From assembly GCA_025774205.1 (NCBI GenBank), contig JALGWK010000081.1, forward strand, positions 1-7,687: DNA of 7,687 nucleotides, in the 5' to 3' direction. This DNA is from a bacterium. Lineage in GTDB: Bacteria; Blakebacterota; Blakebacteria; Blakebacterales; Blakebacteraceae. The notes under the pieces were generated by a model, which saw only the letters and a program-made list of their open reading frames with translations, was not told where the DNA came from and searched no databases. The stretch's first letter is position 1. Every line of letters begins with the position of its first letter. Below, piece by piece: positions 51 to 7,687 of the stretch. The position numbers were made by a program, and so were the translations under genes.

Positions 51-1229
51 TCAGGCTCGCGCCACCGACATCATGTCGAACATCGGCAGCAGACAGGCCA
101 GAATCATCCCGCTCACGATCAGTCCCATGGCGATGATCAACAGCGGTTCAAGCACGGTTGTGAGCCTGGTCACCTCGTGAGCGACTTCCCGGTCGTAGAA
201 CTCTGCCACTTCCAGGGCCATCTCATCGAGTGAACCGCTCTCCTCACCCACGGAGAACATCTGTACCACCATGGGCGGAATCTCTTTGCTCTCGGCCAGC
301 GGTTCCGAAAAGGAACGTCCCTGCTTGACCTGCTGCTGGACCCTCAGGATTTCGACCAGTGGAACACCCCGTGACAGCAGCGAACCGTAGGTCCTGGAGA
401 ACCGGGCAATATTCAGCTTCCGGACCAGGTCTCCCGCCAGTGGCAGTCTCAACTGGAGCATGTGCCAGTAATACTCCCCCCGATCCGACCTGACGAGGCT
501 CTTGAGCCCCACGATGGCGAGAATGACGCCGGGCAGGATGAAGAACCAGTACCCCTTCATGAATCCGCTCGCCCACAGGAGCGCCAGGGTGAGCCCCGGC
601 AGATCGACCCCCGCGTCGGTGAAGATCTCCACGAACTGGGGGATGATGAAGGTCAGCAGGAAGCTGACGATGATCACCGCTACCCCGGCCATGATCGAGG
701 GGTAGACCATCGCGTTCTTGATCTTCTGGTTGAGTTCCTTCTGCGACTCCAGGATCCCGGCCAGGTACAGCAGGTTCTCCGGAAGCCCCCCTCCGATCTC
801 GCCAACCGTTACCAGGGCGAGGAAGAGCGGTCCGAACACCTTCGGATACCGGCCAAACGCTTCACTCAGCTGCTCACCTGCCTGGATGTGCCGTTTCACC
901 TCGCCCAGTATCATCTTGAACCGATCGTTCTCGGTCTGGGCGATGATGACGTCCAATCCTTCGGTCAGCGGGACGCCAGCCTTGAGCATTGTGCCAAAGA
1001 GCGTGGTGAAGGTCGCCAGGTCATCATCTTTGATCGGTTTCTGGAAAAGCCGGTCGAAAAAACTCAGGTCGAACTTGAATCCAGACTTTCTTTTCGGTTC
1101 GACACTGACAACCGAGTAACCGTGTGAGACGAGCTGGTCGTAGACTACCTTCACGCTTTCTGCCTGTGATTCCCCGGTGACAACACTCCCGTCTGAGGAG
1201 ATCACTTTGTATTCATAGAACCGGGCCAT
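51..1229 (-). CDS. pilC: Type IV pilus / type II secretion inner-membrane platform protein (PilC/GspF family)
   Basis: This is the polytopic platform protein on which the extension ATPase acts to assemble pilin subunits in the inner membrane. The N-terminus (MARFYEYKVISSDGS...) is typical of PilC. It is followed by a first T2SSF repeat (about residues 73-195: TLFGTMLKAGVPLTEGL, then VTVGEIGGGLPENL) and a second (about 277-382: FSRTYGSLLSRGVPLVE, then FSVGEESGSLDEM). Three hydrophobic segments are visible at about 178-200, 224-244 and 361-383. At 392 residues it is slightly shorter than the usual 400 or so, and the loss maps to the second repeat: L291 to G304 spans 14 residues, while the equivalent stretch in repeat one (L88 to G118) spans 31. 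A sigma54-type promoter lies directly upstream, and the G-rich stretch at 1239-1244 is only a weak Shine-Dalgarno. The family is clear. Pilus versus secretion system cannot be separated from this gene alone. Confidence 0.95.
   Translation of the reverse strand: MARFYEYKVISSDGSVVTGESQAESVKVVYDQLVSHGYSVVSVEPKRKSGFKFDLSFFDRLFQKPIKDDDLATFTTLFGTMLKAGVPLTEGLDVIIAQTENDRFKMILGEVKRHIQAGEQLSEAFGRYPKVFGPLFLALVTVGEIGGGLPENLLYLAGILESQKELNQKIKNAMVYPSIMAGVAVIIVSFLLTFIIPQFVEIFTDAGVDLPGLTLALLWASGFMKGYWFFILPGVILAIVGLKSLVRSDRGEYYWHMLQLRLPLAGDLVRKLNIARFSRTYGSLLSRGVPLVEILRVQQQVKQGRSFSEPLAESKEIPPMVVQMFSVGEESGSLDEMALEVAEFYDREVAHEVTRLTTVLEPLLIIAMGLIVSGMILACLLPMFDMMSVARA
318..359 (-). other. Shortened helical hairpin in the second T2SSF repeat of PilC
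   Basis: Residues 291-304 of PilC (L-V-E-I-L-R-V-Q-Q-Q-V-K-Q-G) join the start of the first cytoplasmic helix of repeat two almost directly to the end of the second helix. Compared with repeat one of the same protein, about 17 residues are missing in frame. The flanking motifs (GVPLVE before, GRSFSE after) are intact. This is inferred by internal repeat comparison, not by alignment with homologues. Confidence 0.55.
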
Positions 1230-1251: not shown

Positions 1252-1267
1252 TGCAAATGTCATGCCA
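1252..1267 (-). promoter_or_regulatory. Sigma54 (RpoN) promoter of pilC, -24/-12 element
   Basis: On the minus strand the sequence TGGCATGACATTTGCA matches the sigma54 consensus TGGCAC-G-N4-TTGCW at every conserved position except T for C at position six. The invariant GG (1266-1265) and GC (1254-1253) are separated by exactly 10 bases, as required. With C1253 as -12, transcription would start near 1241, only about 12 bases before the pilC ATG. The adjacent upstream gene encodes a complete sigma54 activator with the GAFTGA loop, which strongly supports the call. That this regulator acts here is inference. Confidence 0.8.
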
Positions 1268-1292: not shown

Positions 1293-1325
1293 CGTGTAAC
1301 CACCTTTGAAGTAAGTAGTTACACG
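1293..1325. repeat. 33-base dyad, 8-bp perfect arms (possible operator)
   Basis: CGTGTAAC (1293-1300 on the plus strand) and GTTACACG (1318-1325) form a perfect inverted repeat with 8-bp arms and a 17-base spacer. The centre lies about 68 bases upstream of the predicted sigma54 start point and about 50 bases upstream of the -24/-12 element. It could be a second regulator site, an IHF-assisted architecture, or a site for another protein. The arm sequence differs from the TTAACAG repeats further upstream. Confidence 0.45.
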
Positions 1326-1374: not shown

Positions 1375-1396
1375 CCTGTTAACCATCCTTAACAGG
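1375..1396. promoter_or_regulatory. 22-base palindrome, candidate enhancer (UAS) for the sigma54 activator
   Basis: On the minus strand CCTGTTAA (1396-1389), six bases, then TTAACAGG (1382-1375) form a perfect 8-6-8 dyad. The size and symmetry are those of dimeric Fis-type helix-turn-helix sites used by NtrC-family regulators. The centre is about 145 bases upstream of the predicted pilC transcription start, within the usual enhancer range. Binding by the neighbouring regulator is inferred from position only. Confidence 0.5.
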
Positions 1397-1415
1397 TGTT
1401 CTCAGACTGTTAAGG
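1387..1415. repeat. 9-bp inverted repeat overlapping the UAS palindrome
   Basis: CCTTAACAG (1415-1407, minus strand) and CTGTTAAGG (1395-1387) are perfect inverted repeats around an 11-base spacer. The right arm is shared with the 22-base palindrome at 1375-1396, so the motif TTAACAG/CTGTTAA occurs three times within about 40 bases in alternating orientation. It begins 7 bases after the regulator stop codon. The stem could form in RNA, but it is AT-rich and no T tract follows, so tandem protein sites seem likelier than a terminator. Confidence 0.5.
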
Positions 1416-1422
1416 CGGCTTA

Positions 1423-2826
1423 TCACTTCCGCGATGAGGTTCCGTTCCCGATCGCGTACTCGTTGATCTTCTGATGGAGGTTGACGCGACTGATCCTGAG
1501 CAACCGTGCCGCCTCGCTCTTGTTGCCGCCCGATCGCTCCAGCGCTTCCTCTATGAGAACCCGTTCGAACCGGGAGCGCACCTGTTTCAGGGCATCGGGG
1601 AGCGACTGACCCGCCAATTCGTCCAGGGAGAGGGTCGAGGTGGACGGTGTTCCACCGATCATCTCGGGAGGAACCGCCGCGAAGGTGATGATGTCGCTCC
1701 GTTCGAGGACCACGGCCCGCTGCAGCGCGTTCTGAAGTTCCCGGACATTCCCCGGCCAGGGGTATTCGAGGAACCTCGCCATCACCTCTTCATCCACTCC
1801 GGTGATCGCCTTCCCGAATTTCTCATTGAAGCGCGTCAGGAACGAGGTCACCAGGATCGGGATGTCCTCGGGTCGGTTCCTGAGAGGAGGCAGGGGCAGG
1901 CTCACAACGTTCACCCGGTAGAAGAGGTCCTCCCGGAAACTGCCGGAAGCGATCGCCTCCTTGAGGTCCTTGTTCGTCGCGGCCAGCAGCCTGACGTTCA
2001 CGCGAACAGTGCTGGCGCCGCCGACCCGGTGGAACTCACCGGTTTCGATAACCCGCAGGAGCTTGGTCTGCACCATGGGGGTCATGTCCCCGATCTCATC
2101 CAGGAAGAGGGTCCCGCCGTCAGCCTGTTCGAATTTGCCCGTCGTACGCTGAGCCGCCCCGGTGAAGGCCCCCTTCTCGTAACCGAACATCTCGGTCTCG
2201 ATGAGTGTGTCCGGGATGGCAGCGCAGTTGAGAGTGATGAAGGGCCCCTTCGCCCGATTGCTCTGCAGATGGATCAGTTCGGCCACCAGTTCCTTCCCGG
2301 TGCCCGACTCTCCCAGGATGAGGCAGGTCACATCAGAATCCGCGACTGTCGAGATCGTTTCCCGGACCACCCTCATCACGGTGCTTTCACCGATGAAGCG
2401 GGGCGCTTCGGCCTTCAGGCCCTCCTCCATCTGCCGGCGCAATTCCTCCACCTCACGTACCAGTCGAGCGTTTTCGGCGGCCCGCCGGATGACCACCCGC
2501 ATATCCGTCAGATCGAACGGTTTGCTGAAATAGTCGTACGCGCCCTCACTCAGGGCCTGGTGGGCGACCTGTTTGTTGCCATGAGCAGTGATGATTATCA
2601 CCGGCACCTCGGGCCGCTGCTCCCGGAAACTCTTCATGATCTCCATGCCGTCCGCGTCGGGCAGTTTCAGGTCCACGACCGCGACATCGAAATCCTCTTC
2701 CCGGAACAGTTCGAGGGCTCGATCCCCCTTCCCGACGGTCCTTACCTCGTATCCTTCCTTCTTCAGCGCCTCGGTGAAGAAGAACCTGATGTTCTCTTCA
2801 TCATCGAGGACCAGGATCCGTGTCAT
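1423..2826 (-). CDS. NtrC-family sigma54-dependent response regulator
   Basis: This cytoplasmic transcription activator remodels sigma54 RNA polymerase after phosphorylation by its partner kinase. It has an N-terminal receiver domain (1-120) with the acidic pair D9/D10, phosphoacceptor D52 (VVDLKLP), T80 and K102. The central AAA+ domain (about 143-375) has Walker A GESGTGKE (172-179), the sigma54-contacting loop GAFTGA (219-224), Walker B GTLFLDEI (238-245) and YPWPGNVREL (355-364). A Fis-type helix-turn-helix sits at about 418-455 (GGNKSEAARLLRISRVNLHQKI). All catalytic residues look intact and 467 residues is a normal length. Its ATG overlaps the kinase stop as ATGA, with GAGGGT (2835-2840) eight bases upstream. 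Given its place in a pilus locus and the sigma54 promoter after it, it is a PilR-like candidate, but the sequence alone also fits other AtoC/ZraR-type regulators. Confidence 0.95.
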   Translation of the reverse strand: MTRILVLDDEENIRFFFTEALKKEGYEVRTVGKGDRALELFREEDFDVAVVDLKLPDADGMEIMKSFREQRPEVPVIIITAHGNKQVAHQALSEGAYDYFSKPFDLTDMRVVIRRAAENARLVREVEELRRQMEEGLKAEAPRFIGESTVMRVVRETISTVADSDVTCLILGESGTGKELVAELIHLQSNRAKGPFITLNCAAIPDTLIETEMFGYEKGAFTGAAQRTTGKFEQADGGTLFLDEIGDMTPMVQTKLLRVIETGEFHRVGGASTVRVNVRLLAATNKDLKEAIASGSFREDLFYRVNVVSLPLPPLRNRPEDIPILVTSFLTRFNEKFGKAITGVDEEVMARFLEYPWPGNVRELQNALQRAVVLERSDIITFAAVPPEMIGGTPSTSTLSLDELAGQSLPDALKQVRSRFERVLIEEALERSGGNKSEAARLLRISRVNLHQKINEYAIGNGTSSRK

Positions 2827-4661
2827 CGGGAGTTACCCTCACTGACACGATAATCCCGGAACACGATCCGGAAGGTTGTGCCCTGCCCCGGTTTGCTATC
2901 CACCTCCAGCTGTCCCTGGTGCTCGTTCACGATGGTGTGGGCGATGCTCAGGCCGAGACCCGATCCGTTCTCCTTGGTGGTGTAGAAGGGATCGAAGATG
3001 TGCTCCATGACGTCTGACGGGATGCCGGGTCCATTGTCGGCGATCTCGATCACCACCCGATCGCCTCCGGCCCGTGCCTCCTTGTAGGTGGCGACCGTAA
3101 CCGCGCCATCTGTTCCGATCGCCTGGAGCGCGTTCACGACGATGTTGTGGAAGGCCTGCAGGAGCCGGTTCCGGTCCATGCGTATGGGCTTCAGGTCCAG
3201 GTCGAGCTCCTGGAGGATGGTCGGTCCACTCTCGCCGAGGCGGAACCGGGTCATCTCGAGACCTTCCTTTACGAGATCGTTGACCTGAACCGATTCGAGA
3301 GTGAGGGGACGACGCTGAGAATAATCGAGCAGTTCCTCCACGATACTGCTGAGCCGGTCGACCTCGCGGACGATTCGATCGAGGTACTGGTATGTCTCGC
3401 TCCCCTCCTCGAGTGATTCGAGGGCGAGCTGTCCGAGTCCCTTGACCGAACCGAGCGGGTTCCGGATCTCATGGGCCACCTTGGTGGCCATGTTCCCGAG
3501 GGAACTCATCCGATCCGCCCTCCGGAGCCGCTCCTTCAGTTCGACGAGTTCACTCAGATCGATGATGACCACGATGGCATTGAGGATCCCGCCCGACTGG
3601 TCGGGTACCAGACTGGTGGCCACTCCCAGCTGGACGATCTCACCCCGTCCATTTCTGAAATCGATCTCACGGGTCCTTCCGAAGGTGATGTGCTCGACCA
3701 ACAGCTCATTCAGGATCGCAATGAAGGGCTGGTTCTCATCAGGTGACGGGATGATCTGACCGATTGTCCGTCCGATCATGTTCCCCTCGAGGCCCATTAT
3801 CCGTCGGGCTGCCGTGTTTATCTGCAGAACCTCTCCCTTTTCGTCGAGCGCCACCACACCCCCCTCCATCGACTCCACGATCCCATGGAGCGATCGTTTC
3901 ACGTTGACCAGCGCGTTCAGAGCCTGTTCGAGGGCCAGTGCCAGCGTCGCGACCTCTTCCGGCTCCTTCGCCAGTTCGATGATCCTGTTCACTTCCTCCG
4001 GGTCGAGCAGTTCCCTCCTGGCGAGTTCACGCGTCTTCTCCGCGAGTCGATGCAGGGGCGCAGTCATGACCCAGGAGATACTGATCAGGGCTGCCATCAG
4101 GAGCAGCGTGATGATGAGTGACACGATCCTGATCCAGCGGCTGAATTGCTGGATGTTGCGGTAGGGTTCCAGCGCGATCAGGTAGTAGCCGTTCTCGATC
4201 GCCCGATGGACTGTGGCCAGGTGACGCTCCCGCTGAAGCCCTATCTCGATGATCTGGGCCGGATCAATATCGCTCGTCAGGGTCAGGAGTCGGGTCTGGT
4301 CCTGCTGGGTGATCTCACCGGTCGGATCGTAGTGCAGGAACGACGCCGCGAGAGGAGTCCTGATGAGCACGAAGCGGACATCATCCGTCTGGCGCGACCG
4401 CTCGTGAAAGCCCACCTGGTCACCGAGCACCGCCAGGAGAGTGTCATCGGTTTCCAGCATCTGACGCTCCGCGGCGTTGATAAGGCTCCGGGCCAGAACG
4501 ATATGATAGTTGAGAGCCCTTTGCTGCAGCACCCGGGTTGAGTGTTTCGCAGCGAATGTCGTCACTGCCACGGAGACAAGCATGATCAGGAGCGGCAGAC
4601 TCACTACCAGCCTCAGCCGAACTCCTGATCGCAATTTTGTTCTGGTTGATGTCATCATCAT
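2823..4661 (-). CDS. Membrane PAS sensor histidine kinase, partner of the sigma54 regulator
   Basis: This kinase autophosphorylates on histidine and should phosphorylate D52 of the regulator encoded next to it. The order is: transmembrane helix (about 18-38), periplasmic region of about 140 residues (39-177), second transmembrane helix (about 178-198), HAMP-like linker (199-252), PAS (about 257-370), and HisKA with H-box VAHEIRNPL (H397). The HATPase domain follows, with N-box FHNIVVNALQA (N506/N510), G1 DNGPGIP (542-548), F-box FDPFYTTK (556-563) and G2 GSGLGLSI (566-573). All kinase boxes are intact. Three ATG codons in a row (4661, 4658, 4655) offer alternative starts; AAAGG at 4665-4669 is better spaced for the second or third. 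Canonical PilS has six transmembrane helices and no large periplasmic domain, so this is a PilS analogue by position but closer to AtoS/ZraS types in architecture. What it senses is unknown. Confidence 0.94.
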   Translation of the reverse strand: MMMTSTRTKLRSGVRLRLVVSLPLLIMLVSVAVTTFAAKHSTRVLQQRALNYHIVLARSLINAAERQMLETDDTLLAVLGDQVGFHERSRQTDDVRFVLIRTPLAASFLHYDPTGEITQQDQTRLLTLTSDIDPAQIIEIGLQRERHLATVHRAIENGYYLIALEPYRNIQQFSRWIRIVSLIITLLLMAALISISWVMTAPLHRLAEKTRELARRELLDPEEVNRIIELAKEPEEVATLALALEQALNALVNVKRSLHGIVESMEGGVVALDEKGEVLQINTAARRIMGLEGNMIGRTIGQIIPSPDENQPFIAILNELLVEHITFGRTREIDFRNGRGEIVQLGVATSLVPDQSGGILNAIVVIIDLSELVELKERLRRADRMSSLGNMATKVAHEIRNPLGSVKGLGQLALESLEEGSETYQYLDRIVREVDRLSSIVEELLDYSQRRPLTLESVQVNDLVKEGLEMTRFRLGESGPTILQELDLDLKPIRMDRNRLLQAFHNIVVNALQAIGTDGAVTVATYKEARAGGDRVVIEIADNGPGIPSDVMEHIFDPFYTTKENGSGLGLSIAHTIVNEHQGQLEVDSKPGQGTTFRIVFRDYRVSEGNSR

Positions 4662-4669
4662 CGACCTTT
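4655..4669 (-). promoter_or_regulatory. Ribosome binding site and triple ATG deciding the kinase start
   Basis: On the minus strand AAAGG (4669-4665) is followed by TCG and then ATGATGATG. The gap to the three ATGs is 3, 6 and 9 bases, so initiation at 4658 or 4655 is better supported by spacing than at 4661. The TGA of pilB (4660-4658) lies within the ATG run, so a ribosome terminating there could restart on any of them. Confidence 0.55.
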
Positions 4670-6493
4670 AAAAACCTCGACCGGGGCGGAATCAGGCCCT
4701 TCAACCCCGCCCGATTCGGTCTCCTCTACATTCTGGGTTACCCGGAGCACTTCTTCGATCGTGGTGATCCCGTCCCTGACCTTGGCAAGTCCGTCATCAC
4801 GCAGAAGCCTCAGCCCCTGACTGCGGGCGATATCAGTGAGAATCGCGCTGTCTGCGCTGATGTTGATCTGCTTGCGTATCTCGCGCGTGATCCGGAGCAA
4901 TTCGTAGATGCCGCTCCGACCCGCATACCCGGTGTTCAGACATTCGTTGCATCCTTTCCCCTTCGTGAACGTGAAACCCTCGAAGGAGGCGGGATCGGCG
5001 AACTGGCGAAGGATCTCGGGGTCGGGTTCGTACTCCTCGCGGCAGTGGGGACAGATCGTCCTCACCAGCCGCTGGGCCAGAACACCGGTCACCGTGTTGG
5101 CAATGAGGTAGGCCGGGATACCCATATCCACCAGGCGGACGATCGCGCCGACCGCGTCATTGGTATGCAGGGTAGAGAACACCAGGTGCCCGGTCAGGGA
5201 GGCCTGAACGGCGATCTGTGCCGTCTCCGCGTCACGTATCTCACCAACCATGATGATATCGGGGTCCTGTCGCAGGATTGAGCGGAGACTGGTGGCGAAC
5301 GTCAAGCCGGCTTTCGGATTCGTCTGGACCTGGTTGATCATCTCCAGCTGGTATTCGATCGGGTCCTCGACCGTAACGATGTTCTGGTCGGGGCTGTTGA
5401 TCTCGGAGAGCGCTGAATAGAGGGTAGTCGTCTTGCCCGATCCGGTCGGACCGGTGACCAGGAGAACCCCGTTCGGCTGACTGATGAGTTTCCGGAACTC
5501 GATCAGCGCATCTTCAGGAAAACCGATCTTATTGAGCTGGAGCTGGTCTTTGTTCGTTTCGAGCAGCCGCAGCACGATCTTCTCGCCGTAGAAGGTCGGG
5601 AGAGTACTTACCCGGATATCCACCTCCATGCCATGGAGACGGACGTGGAAACGGCCGTCCTGCGGGATCCGCTTTTCGGCGATGTCCATGGCCGCGAGGA
5701 TCTTGACCCTGGTGACCACCGCCGACTGGAGTCGCTTCGGGGGAGCCATATCCTCCTCCATGAGAACCCCGTGTATCCTGTACCGGATCCGGATGAAGTG
5801 TTGTGCGGGCTCGATATGGACATCGGAGGCGCCATCTCTCAGCGCCTTTCCGATCACCAGGTTCACTAGTTTGACGACCGGGGCTTCCTCGGCGCTCTCG
5901 GCCATCTCCGCGATGTCGTAGTCGTCGTCGAATTCCTTGTCCTGCACCTGCACGAACTCAATCGAGTCCTCGTCACTCAGTTCGCCGAACTCACGGAAGA
6001 AGGCGCTCAGACCGTAGAGTCGCTCGATGGCGCGTTCGATGTCATTCCGGGAACCGATAATCGGCTCGATCTCTATCCCGGCCAGCCGCTTGAGATCGTC
6101 CAGCTTGGCTATGTCGAGTGGATCGAGCACCGCGACCTGCAGCACCTCTCCATCTTCGATGAGGCGTACCGGGACTGCTCGCAATCTCCGGGCGACATCT
6201 TCAGGGAACATTTTCGATATCGCTTCCTCGGGTTCGTATTCGATGAGATCGAACACATCGACTTCCAGCTGTTCAGCCAGGGACCGGATCAGGTCGGTCT
6301 CGGAGACGAGGCGCATGTCACGGATGATCTCACCGAGGCGCTTGTATTCCTTGCGCTGCTGTTCGAGCACTTGCTCGACCTGGCTACTGCTGAGAAGTCC
6401 TTTTTCCTTCAGGATGGCACCCAGCTTCCGCCGGCGCTCCTGCATCGGCTGCTCCCTGGGGGAGTCATCCTTGTCACGTTTGATCGCGGTCAT
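4658..6493 (-). CDS. pilB: Type IV pilus extension ATPase (PilB/GspE family) with MshEN N-domain
   Basis: This cytoplasmic hexameric ATPase drives pilin polymerisation. The N-terminal MshEN/T2SSE-N domain (about 20-160) includes two 24-residue repeats starting at K23 and R52. The second is followed by a low-complexity acidic linker (172-202). Next come the N2 domain (about 205-312) and the RecA-like core with Walker A GPTGSGKTTT (348-357), Asp box VTVEDPIEY (373-381), Walker B DPDIIMVGEIRD (410-421) and His box GHLVFSTLHTND (435-446). A tetracysteine zinc motif (C481/C484 and C515/C518) marks the PilB/GspE class rather than PilT. The length of 611 is slightly above the usual 570 or so because of the N-terminus and an acidic C-terminal tail (about 588-611). 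The ATG overlaps the HD-GYP stop as ATGA and is preceded by GAGGAA (6502-6507) at 8 bases, which decides this start over M17. GspE is the alternative identity. Confidence 0.95.
   Translation of the reverse strand: MTAIKRDKDDSPREQPMQERRRKLGAILKEKGLLSSSQVEQVLEQQRKEYKRLGEIIRDMRLVSETDLIRSLAEQLEVDVFDLIEYEPEEAISKMFPEDVARRLRAVPVRLIEDGEVLQVAVLDPLDIAKLDDLKRLAGIEIEPIIGSRNDIERAIERLYGLSAFFREFGELSDEDSIEFVQVQDKEFDDDYDIAEMAESAEEAPVVKLVNLVIGKALRDGASDVHIEPAQHFIRIRYRIHGVLMEEDMAPPKRLQSAVVTRVKILAAMDIAEKRIPQDGRFHVRLHGMEVDIRVSTLPTFYGEKIVLRLLETNKDQLQLNKIGFPEDALIEFRKLISQPNGVLLVTGPTGSGKTTTLYSALSEINSPDQNIVTVEDPIEYQLEMINQVQTNPKAGLTFATSLRSILRQDPDIIMVGEIRDAETAQIAVQASLTGHLVFSTLHTNDAVGAIVRLVDMGIPAYLIANTVTGVLAQRLVRTICPHCREEYEPDPEILRQFADPASFEGFTFTKGKGCNECLNTGYAGRSGIYELLRITREIRKQINISADSAILTDIARSQGLRLLRDDGLAKVRDGITTIEEVLRVTQNVEETESGGVEGPDSAPVEVFKGR
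6311..6427 (-). other. MshEN-type repeats (possible c-di-GMP binding) in PilB
   Basis: The c-di-GMP-binding MshEN pattern is RLG-x2-L-x3-G-x6-L-x3-L-x2-Q. Repeat I spans residues 23-46 (KLGAILKEKG..., then V39, L43, Q46) and repeat II residues 52-75 (RLGEIIRDMR..., then L68, L72, Q75). Repeat I has K for R at position 1 and V for L at position 17. Repeat II keeps RLG but has R61 where the conserved glycine (position 10) belongs. The fold is clearly present. Whether ligand binding survives is uncertain. Confidence 0.55.
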
Positions 6494-7407
6494 CCAAGTG
6501 ATTCCTCAGCAGAGGGTTCAGGCTGTCGGTCCGGGGCGGTCACCTCGGGGAGCACATCGATCGCCAGCGGAACCAGGTCGGGATCGAACTGTGTTTCGGA
6601 ACAGTCACGGAGTTCCTGGATGATCTCCGGGATCGTCTTCGCGCGACGGTAGAACCGGTCGTTGGCCATGGCGTCCCAGGTGTCTCCGAGAATCAGCAGG
6701 CGGGCCATGAAGGGGATCTCATCCCGGCTGAGCCCCTCGGGATAGCCGTAACCATCCCATCGCTCATGGTGATAGAGGATGCCGTCGAGAGCCGCCTTCA
6801 GGAAACTGATCGGTTTGACGATCTCGTAACCGATCCCCGGGTGCTGCTTGACGAGATTGAACTCTTCATGAGACAGCTTCTCCTTGGTGGAGAGGATATG
6901 GGTCGGGAGACCGATCTTGCCGACGTCGTGCAGCAGGGCCGAATACCTGATCATTTCCACTTCCGCGGTGGGAAGACCGACCGCGCGGGCAAGATGGACC
7001 GAGTTCCGCATGACCCGCTCCGAGTGGCCGCGGGTGTAGGCGTCTTTGGCATCGACCGCTGCCGCCAGGGCCGTCACCGTATCGAGATAGGAGACTTCAA
7101 GGCTCCGGTAGAGCTGGGCGTTCCGGCCGGCCACCGACACATGACTGGCCAGGGTTTTCAGGAATTCGATGTCGTCCTCACTGAACGACTCGGCACTCTG
7201 TTCGATGGTGAGGATGATCGCTCCGTAGGCGTGTTCCTCTTTGAAGAGGGGGAGTCCCAGGGTTCTGATCGACCGCTCACGGCTCCAGAGACTCAGGGTA
7301 CGAACCTCGATCTCACCGTCATAGATCAGGCAGAGGTTTTCACTCTGGAGGACCTTCCGGGCGCACTCGCGTGGCGTCCCGAATCCCTTCGACAGATCCG
7401 GCGCGTT
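6490..7407 (-). CDS. GAF (C-terminal part) and HD-GYP domain, c-di-GMP phosphodiesterase-like; 3' piece of a frameshifted gene
   Basis: HD-GYP proteins hydrolyse the second messenger c-di-GMP. Counting from an in-frame GTG at 7140, the domain shows RGHSERV (H39), LLHDVGKIGLP (H71, D72, K75), QHP (H100), HHERWDGYGYPEGL (H124, H125, GYP 132-134) and GDTWDAMANDRFYR (D153), so the known metal ligands and the GYP signature are present. Upstream of the GTG the frame stays open to 7407 and encodes the back half of a GAF domain (SLWSRERSIRTLGLPLFKEEHAYG, SEDDIEFLKTLASHV), so GTG 7140 is not a credible natural start. There is no ATG, GTG or TTG between 7407 and 7140. The front half of the protein lies in another frame (7340-7687). 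The stop overlaps the pilB start as ATGA, suggesting coupled expression and a c-di-GMP role in pilus control. Confidence 0.85.
   Translation of the reverse strand, partial: NAPDLSKGFGTPRECARKVLQSENLCLIYDGEIEVRTLSLWSRERSIRTLGLPLFKEEHAYGAIILTIEQSAESFSEDDIEFLKTLASHVSVAGRNAQLYRSLEVSYLDTVTALAAAVDAKDAYTRGHSERVMRNSVHLARAVGLPTAEVEMIRYSALLHDVGKIGLPTHILSTKEKLSHEEFNLVKQHPGIGYEIVKPISFLKAALDGILYHHERWDGYGYPEGLSRDEIPFMARLLILGDTWDAMANDRFYRRAKTIPEIIQELRDCSETQFDPDLVPLAIDVLPEVTAPDRQPEPSAEESLG
7340..7407 (-). other. Frameshift interval in the HAMP-GAF-HD-GYP gene, probable site near 7385-7387
   Basis: The upstream frame ends at TGA 7342-7340 and the downstream frame is closed above 7407 by TGA 7410-7408, so the shift must lie between them. 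Protein continuity is best if one G of the GGG at 7387-7385 is removed, giving V-E-G-F-G-T-P-R-E-C-A-R-K-V-L. The sequence therefore has one extra base relative to an intact gene. No classical slippery stop signal is evident, so an indel mutation or a sequencing/assembly error is likelier than programmed frameshifting. Confidence 0.75.
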
Positions 7408-7687
7408 TCAGACCCTCGATCCGGAACCTGTCCGGTTCGAGGTCATCACTGTCGATGGTATAGAGGCCGACCATCGCCGGTTTCACATGATTACGGACGT
7501 TCTCCTCGACCGATCCACCCAGTTTATCGAGTGACAGGTGGTGCGAGAAGGCATGCCCCGCCTGGTTCAGACCGGCCAGCTGATCAACCTTCCGCACCAG
7601 TGAATCGGTCATGGTGTTGAAGGACATGATCAGGTCGCCGATCTCATCATTCACGGGGTAGACGATCCGACGGGTGAGGTCACCGCC
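7340..7687 (-). CDS. HAMP and GAF (N-terminal part), 5' piece of the frameshifted HD-GYP gene, truncated by the window edge
   Basis: The frame enters from beyond the window edge (first codons G-G-D-L-T-R-R-I) and reads the second half of a HAMP domain, GDLTRRI...NDEIGDLIMSFNTMTDSLVRKVDQL. This implies a transmembrane segment and perhaps a periplasmic sensor further upstream. A short helical link leads to the start of a GAF domain (NQAGHAFSHHLSLDKLGGSVEENVRNHVKPAMVGLYTID). It runs to a TGA at 7342-7340, but residues after about 7385 (I-R-D-A-T-R-V-R-P-E-G) look like out-of-frame nonsense, whereas the other frame continues the GAF fold. Together with the 3' piece this would be one HAMP-GAF-HD-GYP membrane protein. 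The GTG at 7654 lies inside the HAMP domain and is not a real start. Confidence 0.8.
   Translation of the reverse strand, partial: GGDLTRRIVYPVNDEIGDLIMSFNTMTDSLVRKVDQLAGLNQAGHAFSHHLSLDKLGGSVEENVRNHVKPAMVGLYTIDSDDLEPDRFRIEGLKRAGSVEGIRDATRVRPEGPPE

Follow-up and report, generated by a model that had tools for sequence, protein, structure and literature searches.

Among described systems, the locus reported here most resembles the PilS-PilR/sigma54 control of pilA in Pseudomonas aeruginosa and Geobacter sulfurreducens. Likeness lies in an NtrC-type two-component regulator within the pilus cluster and in a sigma54 promoter before a pilin operon, with the difference that here the promoter precedes pilC and the prepilin gene comes second. 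The recognition helix of PilR presumably differs from that of the regulator studied here. The P. aeruginosa PilR site is recognized by TGT-N11-AGA and GTCT elements (PMC6058289), as against CTGTTAA-N6-TTAACAG at our locus. Another comparable case is NmpR of Myxococcus xanthus (GCGCA-N5-TGCGC), where two dyads, built from GCGCA half-sites with an N5 spacer instead of CTGTTAA half-sites with an N6 spacer, likewise stand in tandem ahead of a sigma54 box. Tandem dyad sites with neighbours 10-15 bp apart are known for several NtrC-like regulators (PMC11841059), and the 11-bp gap between our two dyads fits this range. Finally, the orp promoters of Desulfovibrio vulgaris likewise carry IHF sites between activator dyads and the sigma54 box (PMC3897727); those were matched to the one-sided WATCARN4TTR, whereas the element described below is two-sided, YAAN4YTG-N5-CARN4TTR.

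The enhancer-bend-sigma54 layout is therefore classic, and the new part is only the exact DNA word: CTGTTAA-N6-TTAACAG was not found in a non-exhaustive literature search, in which the motif letters returned unrelated text. With it, a pilus regulator from a phylum known mainly from metagenomes would have a concrete recognition word that can be tested; the layout appears intact in this phylum, and the regulator appears tied to a pilC-prepilin operon.

The pilus gene cluster and its sigma54 promoter

The window (7,687 nucleotides) is the whole of contig C279 of the draft genome G000 (3.09 Mb, estimated 86% complete). Its minus strand encodes an HD-domain protein, a PilB/GspE-type assembly ATPase of the same cluster (4658..6493, from profile matches), a PAS sensor histidine kinase (2823..4661; PAS, HisKA, HATPase_c), an NtrC-type, PilR-like response regulator (1423..2826) and a PilC/GspF-type inner membrane protein (51..1229; Pfam T2SSF, with NCBIfam GspF/PilC below cut-off). 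The kinase and regulator genes overlap by 4 bp, and the kinase is the probable partner of its neighbour. In G000 and in two relatives, G001 and G002, the promoter is followed by pilC and, behind it, a prepilin gene; for G000 this order was obtained from a contig overlap, as the end of the window overlaps C224, which runs from the pilC end into the orthologous prepilin gene. pilC would be the first gene of an operon under predicted sigma54 control. At the other end of the window, the HD-domain gene (6490-7687) seems split over two frames, possibly through an assembly error, and the G001 counterpart, of 542 aa, is unbroken and includes HAMP, GAF and HD domains.

The repeat array discussed below lies in the 193 bp that separate the regulator gene, ending at 1423, from pilC, which starts at 1229. 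This gap also holds a minus-strand sigma54 -24/-12 box, TGGCATGACATTTGCA (1252..1267, read 1267-1252), with 0 mismatches to TGGCAYRN4TTGCW; the orthologous box has 0 mismatches in G001 and 1 in G002, and a sigma54 (rpoN) gene is present in the genome (PF04552 at C36, E 7e-62). Transcription is predicted to start 12 nt past the C of the -12 element, at about 1241. This +1 lies inside a G-rich ribosome-binding stretch (1230-1251), 12-15 nt before the pilC ATG, giving pilC a leader of about 12 nt, and the geometry is the same in G001 and G002. A start within a ribosome-binding stretch is odd and counts against the enhancer-promoter account.

Two tandem dyads upstream of pilC

A preliminary description of this DNA had reported three near-identical half-sites forming two overlapping palindromes. 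Every repeat it listed is present: an 8-6-8 inverted repeat, CCTGTTAA (1375-1382)-N6-TTAACAGG (1389-1396), and a 9-11-9 inverted repeat, CCTTAACAG (1387-1395)-N11-CTGTTAAGG (1407-1415), with the arm 1389-1395 common to both. The three copies stand, although their total does not, as a fourth half-site in 1407-1426 had been overlooked. Since 1407-1426 is itself a dyad, again with an N6 spacer, the natural reading is four half-sites in two tandem dyads rather than overlapping palindromes, and the 9-11-9 repeat is the halves of two neighbouring sites joined. Dyad 1 (1376..1395) is a perfect 20-bp CTGTTAA-N6-TTAACAG, and dyad 2 (1407..1426), a 20-bp CTGTTAA-N6-TTATCAC with two mismatches, shares bases with the regulator's stop codon. 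Their centres are 31 bp apart, about three helical turns. Taking +1 as about 1241, dyad 1 is centred near -145, where the array had been placed before, and dyad 2 at about -176, both within the roughly 80-200 bp upstream of the start that is the range of an NtrC-type enhancer.

Judged from one sequence, the array is unlikely to only a modest degree (4-6% of shuffles). Among dinucleotide shuffles of the window, 5.7% carry some 7-mer three times, on either strand, within 40 bp, and 4% have a perfect 8-bp inverted repeat in the intergenic stretch. What makes the array convincing is its conservation in relatives, not these single-sequence statistics.

The gap was aligned across three genomes of one small clade, namely G000, G001 and G002, one of the two relatives being a Latescibacterota MAG. 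Their regulator orthologues are 88% (G001) and 76-77% (G002) identical to that of the window; G003, with no detectable orthologue, was left out of the comparison. Invariant positions make up 25/28 of the dyad half-sites (13/14 in dyad 1, 12/14 in dyad 2) against 14/100 of the spacers (p=1.3e-13), and they number 11/12 among the specified bases of the sigma54 box and 9/14 in the arms of the third inverted repeat. Loss of the repeat from relatives that keep the promoter had been named beforehand as the observation that would speak against a binding site; both relatives with the sigma54 box retain both dyads, and the distance between dyad centres is 31, 31 and 31 bp in the three genomes, with dyad 1 lying 109, 109 and 112 bp from the -24 box. 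The half-site GTGATAA overlaps the regulator stop codon in G000 and G001 and is retained in G002, where the gene ends earlier, so the stop codon does not explain its conservation.

The adjacent regulator and the proposed mechanism

The dyads sit at the 3′ end of the regulator gene, whose product combines the domains expected of Group I bacterial enhancer-binding proteins: a receiver (Response_reg), a sigma54-interaction AAA+ domain (Sigma54_activat) with GAFTGA in the translation, and a Fis-type HTH (HTH_8). All three orthologues have the same recognition helix, SRVNLHQKINEY. Among the 25 best NCBIfam matches of the regulator there is no PilR model, and the best match is AtoC at 474 bits versus a cut-off of 714. 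Because of its position, its domains and this co-conservation, the adjacent regulator is most likely what binds the dyads, although these genomes code for many further sigma54 activators, so that another of them may be the binder.

We put at about 0.8 the probability that two dimers of the adjacent PilR-like activator use the array as their enhancer and act, with IHF-type looping, on the sigma54 promoter of the pilC-prepilin operon. The candidate enhancer array of the preliminary description is supported in so far as the dyads are conserved with the promoter, a sigma54 activator gene is adjacent and an IHF-type element lies between. The DNA elements, their geometry and conservation, the gene order and the protein domains are direct observations. 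The neighbouring kinase would phosphorylate the response regulator, two dimers of which would then occupy the two in-phase dyads, while an IHF-type protein at about -68 would bend the DNA. The assembled AAA+ activator could in this way contact sigma54-RNA polymerase at the -24/-12 box through a DNA loop, and this contact would open the promoter of the operon. Here we infer from sequence which protein binds, its phosphorylation by this kinase, the looping and the activation. Against this account weighs its basis of three genomes from one small clade, with no clear regulon beyond this promoter.

A symmetric IHF-type element

Between the dyads and the box lies an inverted repeat that the preliminary description lacked, GTGTAAC-N17-GTTACAC (1294..1324, centre about -68), which we read as a symmetric IHF-type bend site. 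It fits YAAN4YTG-N5-CARN4TTR, which is the IHF consensus of E. coli, WATCARN4TTR (PMC7962754, PMC3897727), doubled back to back, with a score of 10/12, and its position between enhancer and promoter gives extra support to the enhancer interpretation. The first pointer to the pattern came from a six-copy position matrix, whose scan counts are not independent, since they include its own training copies and several loci picked by an earlier form of the pattern. When the literature-derived pattern was applied to 34 sigma54-like places picked by the box alone, 9/34 scored at least 10/12, where 0.24 are expected from random positions and about 1.1 under an AT-rich null (3.3% per place), the symmetric form itself having been suggested by some of the same 34 promoters. 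Three of the nine elements stand 28-29 bp from the box, five 38-41 bp and one 48 bp, in steps of about one helical turn, a clustering noticed post hoc. Elements similar to 1294-1324 were seen upstream of sigma54 boxes in G000 (C220, C126, C106, C476, C356), G001 (C180, C211, C191) and G002 (C22, C311).

The search for HU/IHF-family genes gave two, an HU-like and an IHF-like one, each scoring under the curated cut-offs, and as the genome is incomplete a second IHF gene may be missing. A tentative possibility, which we consider rather doubtful at present, is that in this Latescibacterota lineage a single IHF-like protein reads, as a homodimer, the symmetric double-consensus site. Such sites, set in steps of about 10 bp (gaps of 28-29 or 38-41 bp) before many sigma54 boxes, would then be a permanent architectural part of the sigma54 regulon, and the activator dyads would be promoter-specific, CTGTTAA-N6-TTAACAG for example. 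This symmetric element is more novel and less certain than the enhancer; if its recurrence is confirmed, sigma54 promoters of the lineage would be easier to find, and it would bear on why IHF sites elsewhere are one-sided.

Alternative explanations

The most serious alternative, which we regard as unlikely though worth keeping in mind, is that the dyads are the operator of a different protein, either another of the many sigma54 activators that these genomes encode or a repressor. The dyads directly adjoin the end of an activator gene, with a perfect sigma54 box downstream of them, and the recognition helix is co-conserved, all of which argues for the neighbouring regulator instead. A repressor finds some encouragement in a similar dyad at a prepilin gene start that has no recognisable sigma54 box, but positions -135 to -186 are far for simple repression.

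Repeats of this kind could also act in RNA, as a hairpin in a regulator-pilC read-through transcript serving as terminator, attenuator or processing signal. The minus-strand RNA can indeed fold (MFE -17.4 kcal/mol, z -1.8), but a search for terminators gave neither a T-run nor a terminator-like match at the repeats, and pairing is not preserved: against an unchanging GTGATAA, the partner half varies between TTAACAG, TTTACAG and TTAACAC, and the outer pair is mismatched in dyad 1 of G002. Nor is a 31-bp spacing to a second dyad a property of hairpins, and we rejected the hairpin or terminator reading as very improbable. Still harder to credit are chance repeats in an AT-rich gap; the shuffles quoted above and a loose motif genome-wide no commoner than its control are what such a reading can draw on, whereas both dyads and their spacing are conserved amid diverged spacers, so that the two relatives effectively refute it.

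Dyad copies elsewhere

The exact dyad CTGTTAA-N6-TTAACAG occurs once in the 3.09 Mb genome, and when as many as 3 mismatches are allowed it is matched 25 times and the reversed pattern 23 times, so that noise accounts for most loose matches. The dyad does not serve as a genome-wide marker of a pilin regulon, given a single exact copy and no excess at three mismatches. As the candidate recognition sequence of a regulator family it is supported within the small orthologous group of three only, rather than for PilR regulators in general. Upstream of the other sigma54-like boxes, no dyad with fewer than 4 mismatches was found except at C220 of G000, where a perfect sigma54 box is preceded, at about 165-195 bp, by CTGTTAA copies. 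This site adjoins a different activator (helix HRNTLLHHL) that precedes its own perfect sigma54 box; as the orthologous promoters in G001 and G002 retain the box and lose the motif, we treated it as chance or lineage-specific and set it aside. In 384 kb of homologous regulator and PilC loci from other phyla, the dyad was matched 3 times with no more than 2 mismatches, and the best match lies within PilC-coding sequence.

Dyad-like copies were also seen at the start of orthologous prepilin genes, GTGTTAA-N6-TTAACAT in G000 (C324, L049:5517-5536) and GTGTTAA-N6-TTAACAG in G001 (C46, L101:1501-1520), about 42-43 bp beyond an IHF-type element and with no recognisable sigma54 box. They overlap predicted coding sequence and may for that reason partly reflect the protein, and they remain a lead. 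At L146:985-1000 (G000 C476), a second prepilin gene is preceded by a near-perfect sigma54 box, TGGCACGATATCTGCT, and by an IHF-type element, without a CTGTTAA dyad, so another activator probably acts there. Lastly, TGCAC/GTGCA-type repeats, of which TTGCAC-N8-GTGCAA in G001 is an example, occur in orthologous sigma54 promoters behind a different activator gene (L048:4764-5060, L093:2006-2284, L094:2582-2865) and are a possible site for that other activator.
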